A stretch of DNA of 64,000 nucleotides from Salipaludibacillus daqingensis. GTDB lineage: Bacteria > Bacillota > Bacilli > Bacillales > Salisediminibacteriaceae. The notes under the pieces are model-generated. The model did not search any database. It saw only the letters and a list, made by a program, of their open reading frames with translations, and had not been told where the DNA came from. Each line of letters starts with the position of its first letter. Positions within the stretch are counted from its first letter, which is position 1. Both the position numbers and the translations under genes were made by a program. Below are positions 10,148-14,315 of the stretch, in pieces. The stretch spans positions 62,001 to 126,000 of the forward strand of contig NZ_JARZHF010000002.1 in assembly GCF_029891575.1 (NCBI RefSeq), written 5' to 3'.

Positions 10148-11485
10148 TTAATAAGTCTGTAGGTACTGCTCGCGCTCCCAAGGGTGAACTTGTGTGCGGA
10201 ACATATCCCATTCGATTTCTTTTGATTCAATAAAGTGCTCTAATGCGTGAGCTCCTACTGATTTCGTAATTGTTTCGTTCTTTCTTAACGCATCAATTGC
10301 TTCTTTAAGGTTCGATGGTAAAGCTTCGATACCTTCTGCTTCGCGCTCTTCTAGATCCATCGCATAAATGTTACGATCTGTTTCAGCTGGTGGCGTCATC
10401 TTGTGACGAATACCATCAAGACCTGCTGCAAGCATTGCTGCCATTGCTAAATATGGGTTAGCTGCAGGGTCTGGACTACGAACTTCGATACGAGTACTTA
10501 ATCCACGTGACGACGGGATACGTACTAGTGGAGAACGGTTACGCATTGACCATGCAATATAACAAGGTGCTTCATAACCAGGCACAAGACGCTTATATGA
10601 ATTTACTGTAGGGTTAGTTAATGCCGTAAACGCATGAGCGTGCTTTAACGTTCCTGCTAAGAACTGCATAGCAGTTTCACTTAGTTGATTCTCAGTATTT
10701 GGATCAAAGAAAGCATTGACGCCACCTTCTTTAAATAAAGACATGTTCGCGTGCATTCCACTTCCGTTTACACCAAACAATGGTTTAGGCATGAACGTTG
10801 CGTGAAGACCGTGTTTACGAGCAATTGTTTTAACAACAAGTTTAAATGTTTGAATGTTGTCACAAGTCGTTACAGCATCTGCATATTTAAAGTCAATTTC
10901 GTGTTGTCCTGGAGCTACCTCATGGTGAGATGCTTCAATTTCAAAGCCCATGTCCTCAAGCTCAAGAACGATATCACGTCGACAGTTTTCACCTAAGTCT
11001 GTTGGTGCCAAGTCGAAGTATCCACCTTTGTCGTTTAACTCCAGTGTTGGCTCACCGTGCTCATCATTTTTAAATAAGAAGAATTCTGGCTCAGGTCCGA
11101 TGTTAAAGTCTGAGAACCCAAGTTCGTGTGCTTCTTTAAGTACGTTTTTCAAAGCTCCTCGTGGGTCACCAGCAAATGGTGTTCCGTCTGGATTATAGAT
11201 GTCACAAATTAATCTTGCTACTTTACCTTTTTCAGGAGTCCAAGGGAAGATTACCCAAGTGTCAAGATCTGGATACAAGTACATGTCCGATTCTTCAATT
11301 CGAACAAACCCTTCAATTGATGATCCGTCAAACATCATCAAATTATCCAATGCTTTTGTTAGCTGCGTTACTGGAATTTCAACGTTTTTAATAATCCCTA
11401 GTAAATCTGTGAACTGTAATCGGATAAATCTTACATTTTCCTCATTTGCCATACTTAGAATGTCTTGTTTAGAATACTTACTCAT
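10148..11485 (-). CDS. glnA: Glutamine synthetase, type I
   Basis: A 445-residue type I-alpha glutamine synthetase (B. subtilis enzyme about 444), which makes glutamine from glutamate, ammonia and ATP. Visible signatures are FDGSSIEGF (beta-grasp latch), EPEFFLF (metal site), [22 protein letters not shown] and [17 protein letters not shown]. The start is the ATG at 11485 behind AAGGAGGAG; an upstream in-frame start adds only 7 residues and lacks a site. In B. subtilis glnA is the second gene of glnRA, with feedback-inhibited enzyme acting through GlnR and TnrA. Here glnR is missing between ynbB and glnA, and glnA has its own terminator and a 275-bp upstream region with a perfect GlnR/TnrA-type box. 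Confidence 0.98.
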
Positions 11486-11527
11486 TCTTATAGTCTCCTC
11501 CTTCAAAATATCTGTTACTTTTCATTT

Positions 11528-11580
11528 GGAGTAACAGGACGTTTCTCCTGACTAACTCCTTTGTTGAAGAACCTGTTATT
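11528..11580 (-). promoter_or_regulatory. Alternative hairpins in the glnA leader
   Basis: Hairpin 1 (11528-11559) pairs GGAGT with ACTCC and CAGGA with TCCTG around a 6-nt loop. Hairpin 2 pairs TAACAGG (11532-11538) with CCTGTTA (11572-11578), extendable by two pairs. The two share bases and cannot form together. They lie about 45-95 nt before the start codon. No T-run follows either one, so a terminator switch is not indicated; effects on stability or protein binding are possible. Confidence 0.35.
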
Positions 11581-11663
11581 CTGAAATAACCGAACATTCA
11601 AATTCTTCGTTTTTTTAACGATAAACACATGATAACGAAGATGGAATTATTTTTGTTCGATAT

Positions 11664-11697
11664 TGTCAGATTATCTGACAGGGAAATTTTCTGACAA
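11664..11697 (-). promoter_or_regulatory. glnA promoter with GlnR/TnrA-type operator
   Basis: The palindrome TGTCAGATTATCTGACA (11664-11680) fits the GlnR/TnrA consensus TGTNA-N7-TNACA exactly. On the minus strand a -35-like TTGTCA (11692-11697) and a -10-like GATAAT (11670-11675), 16 bp apart, would place the operator across the -10 box, as expected for repression. Transcription would begin near 11662, giving a leader of about 175 nt. The promoter call is by eye. Confidence 0.6.
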
Positions 11698-11735
11698 AGG
11701 AAAAGAGAGCAGGCTATAATAAACCTACCCTCTTT
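11697..11735 (-). terminator. ynbB terminator
   Basis: A 12-bp stem (AAAGAGGGTAGG against CCTGCTCTCTTT on the minus strand, with two G-U pairs) and a 10-nt loop, followed by a short T-run. It separates ynbB from the glnA promoter. Confidence 0.6.
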
Positions 11736-11759
11736 CTAACAAGCTTAACCGAATTTTTA

Positions 11760-13028
11760 TTATTTCAGTCGATTTTCTTCAAAAATTGTCATCACTGCTT
11801 CCATTACGGCAATTTTTATGTGCTCAAAAGTTAAGCCACCTTGAACGTAAGCTGTGTAAGGTGGGCGAATCGGGCCGTCGGCTGTTAATTCGATACTCGA
11901 TCCTTGAATAAACGTTCCTGCTGCCATGATCACATCGTCTTCATACCCTGGCATATAGCTCGGGTGTGGCGTCACATGGGCGTCAATTGGCGATGAAGCT
12001 TGGATCGATTGGCAAAAGGTAATCATCGCTTTTTTATCCGGAAAAGAAACAGATTGAATCAAGTCTGTTCTCGGGGCATCCCATCTAGGCGCTGTATCCA
12101 TCCCTAACTCGCTTAATAGTTTCGCTGTAAACATTGCCCCTTTCAGTGCTTCATTGACAACATGTGGTGCTAAAAAGAACCCTTGAAACATATCAAGCAA
12201 CGTGTTTAAACTTGCTCCACCTTCGAGACCAATGCCTGGAGCTGTCATCCGGTTACCACATAGACTAATAAGTTTTTTCTTGCCAACTAAATATCCGCCC
12301 GTTTTTGCAATTCCACCACCTGGATTTTTGATAAGTGATCCGGCAACGAGATCTGCACCAACATCCGATGGTTCTTCTTTTTCTACAAATTCCCCGTAGC
12401 AATTATCAACAAAAACAATCACATCTGAGTTAATGTCTTTTACCACTTTTATCATGTCACTAATTTCTGAAACCGTAAACGAGGGCCTGTTGGCATATCC
12501 TTTCGAACGTTGAATGCCAATAACTTTCGTTTTATCTGTCATTTGTTGGCGTATTTGCTTAGCGTCAACTTGATCATTGTTTAAGGGGATTTCTTTATAG
12601 GTAACGCCAAAGTCCATTAACGAGCCGGCATTGTCATCGCCTCTTAGACCAATTACTTCTTCTAATGTGTCATATGGCTTTCCTGTGATGTACATAAGTT
12701 CATCTCCTGGTCGAAGAACGCCAAACAATGCTGTTGAGATAGCATGTGTACCTGAAACAATTTGTGGACGTACCACGGCTGCTTCTGTGCCAAAAACTTG
12801 AGCATACACTTTCTCTAACGTTTCTCTACCCATGTCATCATAACCGTATCCTGTTGAAGGTTGAAAATGAAATTCAGATACTTCGTTATCTTTAAATGCT
12901 TTTAACACTTTTCGTTGATTGTACTCTGAAATTTTCCCTCTTTCTCTAAAGGAAGGTTGTAATGCCTCGATCGTTTCTTCTGCTAATTGTACTATTTGTG
13001 TGCTGGTCATAGTCTGTTGCAACGTCAT
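11760..13028 (-). CDS. ynbB: YnbB, methionine gamma-lyase family PLP protein
   Basis: A 422-residue fold-type I pyridoxal-phosphate protein of the YnbB family, often labelled aluminium resistance protein or methionine gamma-lyase-like. The likely PLP lysine is in SLIKNPGGGIAKTGGYLVG. VRPQIVSGTHAISTALFGVLRPGDE is the cofactor-phosphate region and VFVDNCYGEF holds the ring-contacting aspartate. The real substrate is not established. The ATG at 13028 follows AGAGGAG. It starts 9 bp after hflX, matching the hflX-ynbB pair of Bacillus, and ends in its own terminator. Confidence 0.9.
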   Translation of the reverse strand: MTLQQTMTSTQIVQLAEETIEALQPSFRERGKISEYNQRKVLKAFKDNEVSEFHFQPSTGYGYDDMGRETLEKVYAQVFGTEAAVVRPQIVSGTHAISTALFGVLRPGDELMYITGKPYDTLEEVIGLRGDDNAGSLMDFGVTYKEIPLNNDQVDAKQIRQQMTDKTKVIGIQRSKGYANRPSFTVSEISDMIKVVKDINSDVIVFVDNCYGEFVEKEEPSDVGADLVAGSLIKNPGGGIAKTGGYLVGKKKLISLCGNRMTAPGIGLEGGASLNTLLDMFQGFFLAPHVVNEALKGAMFTAKLLSELGMDTAPRWDAPRTDLIQSVSFPDKKAMITFCQSIQASSPIDAHVTPHPSYMPGYEDDVIMAAGTFIQGSSIELTADGPIRPPYTAYVQGGLTFEHIKIAVMEAVMTIFEENRLK

Positions 13029-13037
13029 TTCTCCTCT

Positions 13038-14315
13038 TTATTCTTCTTGTCTTTTTTTCAATTCATGATATATCGCTGATTTCGGTGGAGCATAGCCACG
13101 AACCATATATCTTTCCGTACTTTCTTCAAATGATCTTTCTAGTTGAATCGTTTCTTTCTGTAATCGATGAAGCCATTTACCTTCATCAGATTCTAAATAA
13201 ACGATGTAAGGTAAAAACTGCTCTTCCATAACCGATTCTATTTTCATTTTAAGCTTGTCCAAATCTTGATCTTCATGAGCACTAATTAATACCGATGCCC
13301 CTTGACTGTTTGCAAAAAAGTCGTCTTTTATTTGATCACGTTTATTATAAACCGTCAACATAGGAATTTGATGTGCTTCCAAATCTTCTAATAACTTTGT
13401 CACCGTTGATTCGTGATTGATAAAATCAGGGTTTGATGCATCGACGACGTGAATAATTAAATCTGCTTCTTTCACTTCTTCTAGGGTGGAGCGAAATGCT
13501 GCGATTAACGTTGTAGGTAATTGCTGAATAAATCCAACTGTATCGGTCATCAATACTTCAATGCCAGAAGGCAATTTTAACTTCTTTGTTGTAGGGTCAA
13601 GGGTAGCAAATAGCTTATCTTCAATATAGACATCAGCATCAGACAACCTATTTAATAACGTTGATTTCCCAGCATTTGTGTACCCAACTAAAGACATTTG
13701 AAATGCTTGATTTTTTTTACGCCTTTCTCGATACCTGTCTCGGTGTGCCACAATTTGTGATAGCTGTCGTCTAATTTCATCCATCCGATCACGAATATGT
13801 CGTTGATCAATTTCTAACTGCGTCTCACCCGGACCTCTCGTACCAATTCCCCCACCTAAACGGGACAACACATGACCTTGCCCGCGAAGGCGCGGAAGGG
13901 AATAGCTTAATTGCGCAAGTTCTACTTGTAATTTCCCTTCTTTCGATTGTGCTCGACCGGCAAAAATATCGAGAATCAATTGCGTTCGGTCAATGATAGG
14001 TGTGTCCATTTGGTTCGTTAAATTTCGTAATTGAGACGATGAAAGTTCATCGTTGAAGATGACTAAATCAGCATCTTTTTCTTCGACCATCAGCTGTAAT
14101 TCCTCTACTTTTCCTTTGCCTATATACGTTGCAGAATGCGGATGCTCAAGGCTTTGAGATACCGTCGCAACAGCTAATCCTCCTGCTGTTTTCGTCAAAG
14201 ATTCTAACTCTTCCATGCTGTATATAAAATCTTCTTCATTGGCTGATTTTTTCTTAACCCCAACGAGAACAACCGTTTCTTGATTTACTTTTGGCTGAGT
14301 ATCGATGATATTCAC
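13038..14315 (-). CDS. hflX: Ribosome-associated GTPase HflX
   Basis: A 425-residue GTPase that binds the large ribosomal subunit and splits or rescues stalled ribosomes under stress. The N-terminal HflX domain carries the glycine-rich loop SRLGGGIGTRGPGETQLE. The G domain has G1 GYTNAGKST, G3 DTVGFIQQLP and G4 NKRD. A C-terminal domain follows (about 360-425). The ATG at 14315 has GGAAGGTG before it. It sits 10 bp after spoVK and just before ynbB, as in B. subtilis (where it is ynbA). Confidence 0.95.
   Translation of the reverse strand: MNIIDTQPKVNQETVVLVGVKKKSANEEDFIYSMEELESLTKTAGGLAVATVSQSLEHPHSATYIGKGKVEELQLMVEEKDADLVIFNDELSSSQLRNLTNQMDTPIIDRTQLILDIFAGRAQSKEGKLQVELAQLSYSLPRLRGQGHVLSRLGGGIGTRGPGETQLEIDQRHIRDRMDEIRRQLSQIVAHRDRYRERRKKNQAFQMSLVGYTNAGKSTLLNRLSDADVYIEDKLFATLDPTTKKLKLPSGIEVLMTDTVGFIQQLPTTLIAAFRSTLEEVKEADLIIHVVDASNPDFINHESTVTKLLEDLEAHQIPMLTVYNKRDQIKDDFFANSQGASVLISAHEDQDLDKLKMKIESVMEEQFLPYIVYLESDEGKWLHRLQKETIQLERSFEESTERYMVRGYAPPKSAIYHELKKRQEE

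Follow-up and report, generated by a model that had tools for sequence, protein, structure and literature searches.

The glnA locus and the box upstream of it

The window, i.e., the whole stretch of DNA analysed, comprises 64 kb of the genome of Salipaludibacillus daqingensis, a salt- and alkali-loving relative of Bacillus subtilis, and the subject here is the control of its glnA gene, which encodes the ammonia-assimilating enzyme glutamine synthetase (GS, type I) and lies behind hflX and ynbB on the same strand (Table 1). No other GS gene was found in the genome at E <= 1e-60. The gap between ynbB and glnA (11486-11759) measures 274 bp and contains no match to a MerR-type protein, in agreement with the sequence-only reading, according to which glnR is missing from this place while its operator has been retained. 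The terminator claimed to follow ynbB is present as well, as a hairpin of -21 kcal/mol (z -3.34) that was missed by a simple terminator scan. So is the claimed palindrome upstream of glnA, TGTCAGATTATCTGACA, which is the single TGTCA-N7-TGACA motif without mismatches in the window. With one mismatch allowed, four such motifs were found versus 2.7 expected from shuffling, and it is therefore the perfection and position of the palindrome that are notable rather than the number of motifs. Across the genome, TGTNANANNNTNTNACA occurs at 16 places, compared with 5 for the reversed control pattern, and the 16 include the sites at glnA, tnrA, and amtB. Further boxes of the TnrA type were seen at G000:C1:722977 (L201), C7:206719 (L206), and C9:156475 (L208), and the genes behind them read as a branched-chain aminotransferase, an Lrp/AsnC-type regulator, and an MFS transporter, the latter being of the nitrate type by sequence reading, while Pfam gives MFS only.

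The glnA transcript is predicted to start at ~11622, where a purine column is kept in 31 of 34 relatives. A scan of the leader for structured RNA gave a single Rfam hit, which is at chance level and falls short of the gathering score of its family. Among named organisms, the closest matches to ynbB come from Salipaludibacillus keqinensis (83%) and from strain CUR1 of Salipaludibacillus sp., and the next ones partly from Alteribacter.

Table 1. Features of the glnA region, in window coordinates.
Feature	Position	Strand	Remark
glnA, type I glutamine synthetase (445 aa)	10148-11485	-	open reading frame and domain match
Predicted 5' leader of the glnA mRNA	11486-11622	-	start predicted at ~11622
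-10 element TATCAT of promoter P1	11629-11634	-	29 nt after the box
-35 remnant CGAACA	11654-11659	-	19-bp spacing to the -10; ACA kept in 26/34
Perfect TnrA/GlnR box TGTCAGATAATCTGACA	11664-11680	-	centre ~-50 from the inferred start
Candidate promoter P2	11670-11697	-	TTGTCA (11697-11692), 16 bp, GATAAT (11675-11670); overlapped by the box
Family-specific upstream element TGTCAGAAAATTTCCC	11681-11696	-	abuts the box
Intrinsic terminator of ynbB	11701-11736	-	hairpin; sets ynbB apart from glnA transcription
ynbB (Met_gamma_lyase family)	11760-13028	-	marker of the ancestral ynbB-glnR-glnA order
hflX	13038-14315	-	domain match

Loss of GlnR in the family and beyond

GlnR normally represses glnA, and TnrA is its sister protein. 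A GlnR profile built from ten GlnR proteins was run against the genome (4.58 Mb in 27 contigs, with a completeness estimate of 99.99%) in a search that reads through stop codons. GlnR was not found in this near-complete genome: the profile matched TnrA only, at E 1.9e-17, versus 1e-53 or stronger in most GlnR-bearing genomes, and a relocated or decayed glnR was rejected here on this ground. Four MerR_1 matches were present in the genome, one of which is TnrA, a protein of 99 aa from a TTG start that is encoded outside the window (G000:C1:324163-324459). It scores 160.5 bits against the TnrA equivalog NF053740 (cut-off 140), and its best relatives among solved structures are TnrA 4r24 and 4r22. 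The three others were rejected as GlnR, since by their sequences they appear to be a regulator resembling the cobalamin-type two-domain proteins, a TipA-like protein, and a short helix-turn-helix (HTH) protein. The sequence-only reading had offered TnrA alone, a glnR moved elsewhere, or another MerR-type protein as possible regulators of glnA and had proposed a whole-genome search; with one TnrA and no GlnR, this search leaves the first option standing and lends no support to the other two in this genome. GlnK was also considered as a helper of TnrA and was dropped, as two weak P-II matches (30-31 bits) in one 300-aa frame do not make a typical GlnK.

The absence of GlnR extends to the entire family of the window in the Genome Taxonomy Database (GTDB), here called f1, whose members include Salipaludibacillus and Alteribacter. 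TnrA was detected by the GlnR profile search in all 35 f1 genomes examined and full-length GlnR in none. No GlnR match was found in any of the 20 f1 ynbB-glnA intervals examined, while all ten intervals from ten other families, read alongside, contained glnR. The gap without glnR, which had been taken for a local oddity, is thus a trait of the family. Bacillus selenitireducens is now placed in Salisediminibacterium and is presumably a member of f1. Together with B. halodurans and B. clausii, it is listed with TnrA and without GlnR in Table 1 of a 2012 survey of the Bacilli by Groot Kormelink et al. (PMC3412718). The absence of GlnR itself is therefore already known, in a likely member of the family and in print since 2012.

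Six of nine genomes from g5, a sister genus within f1, carry a relocated second GlnR-like MerR protein (G014, G015, G016, G020, G021, and G022; L191-L197), which matches the GlnR profile at 1e-33 to 1e-38, is without the GlnR C-terminal tail, and is encoded within ~4 kb of amtB by coordinates. This is possibly a GlnR that no longer responds to glutamine synthetase. In two genomes of another family, an open frame of 87 residues was seen that encodes a DNA-binding part like that of GlnR but lacks the C-terminal tail (L189 and L190 in G082 and G225; f3, genus g55), ~15 kb from a second glnA-like gene whose product shares 51-52% identity with the GS of the window.

In a sample of 299 genomes from the order, 44 gave no GlnR-profile match stronger than 1e-35. 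These comprise all 11 sampled f1 genomes, 11 of 11 from f21, eight from f3, one each from f15, f32, f36, and f37, and ten from f8, f14, f22, and f41 together; the f36 genome (match 5.4e-33) may hold a partial gene, and f3, f15, and f37 include GlnR-bearing genomes too. Among 24 GlnR-less genomes outside f1, TnrA was matched strongly in 13 (E 6e-33 or better) and weakly in one. In G113, G194, and G219 (f41) as well as G098 and G258 (f22), glnA was present, but neither a strong match to GlnR nor any match to TnrA was found.

A tree of 43 chosen sequences was built from ynbB and glnA (FastTree, midpoint root). It places f1 as one clade (0.998) within a group that includes GlnR-bearing members of f3 and f6 (0.997), and apart from f21, and a single loss of GlnR shared by f1 and f21 was rejected on this basis. 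The f21 sequences group with GlnR-less sequences from f37 and f15 (0.892), and judging by this two-gene tree the losses in these three families may be one event, even though f37 and f15 hold GlnR-bearing genomes.

Promoters at the box

The promoter sequences around the box were compared between glnA in f1 and genes whose response is known from B. subtilis. Each promoter was anchored on its box, the best TATAAT-like hexamer 26-32 nt downstream being taken as the -10 and the best match to TTGACA 16-18 bp upstream of it as the -35. For glnR of GlnR-bearing genomes, 72 of 87 promoters were analysed; of the 15 dropped, two had no -10 and 13 had no glnR match at the locus (seven with glnA adjoining ynbB without glnR, and six with neither). 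Also dropped were 6 of 30 tnrA promoters from GlnR-bearing genomes, 3 of 13 from other GlnR-less genomes, and 4 of 30 amtB promoters. One of the 35 f1 genomes (76% complete) gave no glnA match, leaving 34 f1 glnA promoters.

Of the 72 glnR promoters, 64 have a complete TTGACA (6/6, 17 bp from the -10), 61 place the -10 at 28 nt after the box, and 59 contain a second operator, overlapping the -35, with at most one mismatch; the same arrangement is given in section 6 of the 2012 survey (PMC3412718). The f1 glnA promoters all retain the box (TGTNAN7TNACA) without a mismatch, centred near -50 of the inferred start (34/34), and none of them has TTGACA. In 33 of the 34, the second operator deviates at three or more positions, and in no case at one or fewer. 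At 16-18 bp from the -10, the mean -35 match is 2.65 of 6, versus 2.60 in shuffled spacers. The -10 itself, which defines promoter P1, lies at 29 nt in 32 sequences and at 28 nt in two, within one base of its position in the ancestral glnR promoter. A TAnnnT at 29 nt was present in 32 of 34 sequences versus a median of 0 over 100 offsets, so the P1 -10 has been conserved despite a diverged spacer.

This layout resembles that of promoters activated by TnrA in B. subtilis, such as those of tnrA and amtB; in this class, the box is located near -50. In f1, the tnrA promoters have a box in 30 of 30 analysed, a -10 at 29 nt in 29, and a mean -35 match of 2.23, with TTGACA nearer the box in one of the 30; the 26 amtB promoters analysed (of 30) have no consensus -35 (mean match 2.92) and a -10 at 28 nt in 23. 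The tnrA promoter is activated by TnrA in B. subtilis (PMC5569456). When glnA of f1 was compared with both classes, the box placement and the absence of a strong -35 of a TnrA-activated promoter were found, while the adjacent upstream glnR and the TTGACA with a second operator of a GlnR-repressed glnRA promoter were not. As far as sequence comparison goes, it is the -35 and the second operator that tell repressed from activated promoters, and these two carry the argument. The A...T flanks of the box were counted as well, and occur in 58/72 glnR, 6/34 f1 glnA, 6/30 f1 tnrA, and 2/26 f1 amtB promoters, as well as in 7/24 tnrA boxes of GlnR-bearing genomes. According to section 6 of the survey, the TnrA motif is without the conserved terminal A and T of the GlnR motif (PMC3412718), which are taken here as these flanks.

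The mismatch-free box also bears on whether it is a relic or of minor importance, in which case glnA would be essentially constitutive and GS would be controlled by glutamine feedback inhibition alone. Such an outcome is seemingly realised in part of f3, in genomes that keep TnrA but have neither GlnR nor the box, and in Lederbergia, which is devoid of GlnR and TnrA alike and whose loci have glnA adjoining ynbB with neither glnR nor box. For f1, this explanation is very unlikely, given that the box has stayed intact in 34 of 34 sequences while the spacer around it diverged.

The palindrome had been placed over a likely glnA promoter. A promoter-like TTGTCA-N16-GATAAT (P2) does lie beneath it, but the -10 conserved in the family is a second one, farther downstream. 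P2 scores 10 of 12 in this genome and is the sole minus-strand promoter match of the scan in the gap. Among the 34 relatives, its -35 agrees with the consensus at 5 of 6 positions in 23, and its -10 is GATAAT in 14. The -35 region of P2 overlaps the upstream element TGTCAGAAAATTTCCC, at whose spacing a TGTNA half-site occurs in 28/34 f1 glnA, 0/72 glnR, and 0/30 f1 tnrA promoters; this sequence could provide TnrA with a second contact or serve as the -35 of another promoter. A TGTNTCAGAAAATTTC-like stretch similar to TGTCAGAAAATTTCCC was also seen between box and -10 in many f1 amtB promoters.

Two alternatives follow from P2. In the main rival, glnA would be transcribed from P2 beneath the box, with TnrA repressing it in nitrogen limitation and nothing repressing it in excess, for which the repression of glnRA by TnrA in B. 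subtilis is a precedent (PMC4475385, PMC5569456). This appears unlikely: the P2 -10 sits inside the box and is mostly dictated by the box consensus, and 6 of 34 f1 sequences have no half-site at the P2 -35 spacing, while the P1 -10 is found at 28-29 nt in all 34. The half-site is likewise absent in 6 of 8 GlnR-less lineages outside f1 that keep a P1-like -10, and the ancestral position of the P1 -10 counts against transcription from P2 as well. Alternatively, the two overlapping promoters would both be used, a basal P2 in excess and a TnrA-activated P1 in limitation, with TnrA closing P2. Both candidates are indeed conserved in most of f1, yet the arrangement seems improbable. Instead of a -35, the upstream element may represent a half-site for TnrA, since C, T, and A all occur at its fourth position, which is variable in the box too, and since four g5 relatives (L235, L236, L240, and L241) have ATGTNA there.

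The same promoter analysis was given to 13 glnA loci outside f1 (L161 and L163 were not used), of which eight had a box and five were dropped. The eight, from GlnR-less lineages that retain TnrA, comprise five from f21 and one each from f15, f37, and f3 (genus g97); TTGACA is absent in the seven from f21, f15, and f37, which are similar to f1 in this respect. The five dropped loci are f3 glnA genes without a usable box (5 of 6 in f3), four being boxless and one having a spurious box with one mismatch and no -10; G272, one of the four boxless genomes, gave no TnrA match.

A predicted change from repression to activation

TnrA is described as free under glutamine scarcity and bound to feedback-inhibited GS under plenty, with GlnR responding in reverse (PMC9249791, PMC6191146), and the opposite response to feedback-inhibited GS has been ascribed to the linker, which has ~4 flexible residues in TnrA and ~30 in GlnR (PMC9249791). 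The TnrA of this genome retains the GS-binding C-terminal tail, MLRGQLNAAFKMRK, and the span between RQIRYYE and QLNA is 65 residues in 28 of the 29 f1 proteins measured, compared with 62-73 residues in TnrA of GlnR-bearing genomes (23 measured of 30). The loop motifs of the GS are identical to those of the solved B. subtilis-type GS; across f1, all 34 loci carry the D50-loop motif exactly, and at least 29 of them the E-flap motif. Because the linker is short and the tail has been kept, f1 TnrA is expected to be active in scarcity, and with its box at ~-50 of a weak promoter, activation is therefore the expected effect. In theory, TnrA, as the sole GlnR/TnrA-type protein found in the genome, may instead have taken over the literal role of GlnR, so that feedback-inhibited GS would activate it and it would repress glnA in nitrogen excess. 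This is highly improbable, as the linker has not been lengthened, the tail is of the TnrA type, and the second operator is lost.

I propose, with a probability of roughly 0.6, that glnA changed from a GlnR-repressed to a TnrA-activated gene in this family. In the ancestor of f1, glnR would have been deleted from ynbB-glnR-glnA, and glnA would have passed to TnrA control. Under nitrogen scarcity, free TnrA on the box near -50 would recruit RNA polymerase to an intrinsically weak promoter and raise glnA expression, while in glutamine plenty feedback-inhibited GS would bind the C-terminal tail of TnrA and keep it off the DNA, leaving glnA at a basal level. Repression by GlnR in plenty would thereby be replaced by activation by TnrA in scarcity, with GS still sensing for the regulator of its own gene. 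The earlier suggestion that nitrogen control has been rewired is plausible in this light, albeit for a different reason, in that the promoter around the box has changed and not the regulator alone.

Several points weigh against this proposal, P2 as a better-scoring promoter beneath the box and the repression of glnRA by B. subtilis TnrA among them. First, an NTNACA element resembling a -35 is found 19 bp from the P1 -10, with a mean match of 3.47 and at least 5 of 6 positions in 7 of 34 sequences, and the P1 -35 may thus have been displaced rather than lost; P1 is therefore better described as having a weak or poorly spaced -35 than as having none. Second, the distance between box and -10 does not part the two classes and was refuted as a discriminator by f1 amtB, which has 28 nt as glnR does. 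Third, TnrA activation is not the sole outcome: the GlnR-less f3 lineage L146 (genus g97) retains both box and TTGACA, and in four further TnrA-bearing f3 genomes the box is gone. The A...T flanks are also retained in 7 of the 8 boxed GlnR-less sequences outside f1. Finally, the 34 f1 promoters share ancestry and therefore represent one event, not 34.

A broader version is tentative and on balance doubtful. It holds that the conversion happened repeatedly in the order after loss of GlnR, the 17-bp-spaced TTGACA and the second operator being lost while the first operator and the -10 would be left in place, and that the f1 half-site added a second promoter shut by TnrA, such that a single TnrA site would switch between two promoters of glnA.

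Whether other regulators take over where GlnR, TnrA, or CodY is missing was called an "intriguing question" in the 2012 survey (PMC3412718), and for GlnR, the f1 glnA promoters would offer a concrete and testable answer: the DNA site is kept and the sign of control is reversed by the promoter around it. If true, this would be a compact natural case in which repression gave way to activation, at the central gene of nitrogen assimilation, whose enzyme still gates its own regulator. No report of glnA as a member of the TnrA-activated promoter class was found in the open-licence literature searched, and the promoter change and predicted sign reversal at glnA appear to be the new part.

Compared with known systems, the locus is like B. 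subtilis glnRA in its hflX-ynbB-[glnR]-glnA order, the box just upstream of the promoter, and the types of GS and TnrA, but here GlnR is absent, the second operator and the TTGACA at 17 bp are lost, and activation is predicted instead of repression. B. halodurans, B. clausii, and B. selenitireducens share the combination of TnrA without GlnR, although the glnA promoter of these species is not described in section 5 (part 1) or section 6 of the survey (PMC3412718). With the TnrA-activated tnrA and amtB-glnK, f1 glnA has in common a single box, ~28-29 nt before the -10, and the lack of a consensus -35 16-18 bp away from that -10; unlike glnA, these genes encode transport or the regulator itself. 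The nif promoter of Paenibacillus polymyxa likewise has a box upstream of its -35 and -10 and is activated by a protein of the GlnR/TnrA type in nitrogen limitation, but the protein there is GlnR, and a second, downstream site mediates repression in excess (PMC6191146).

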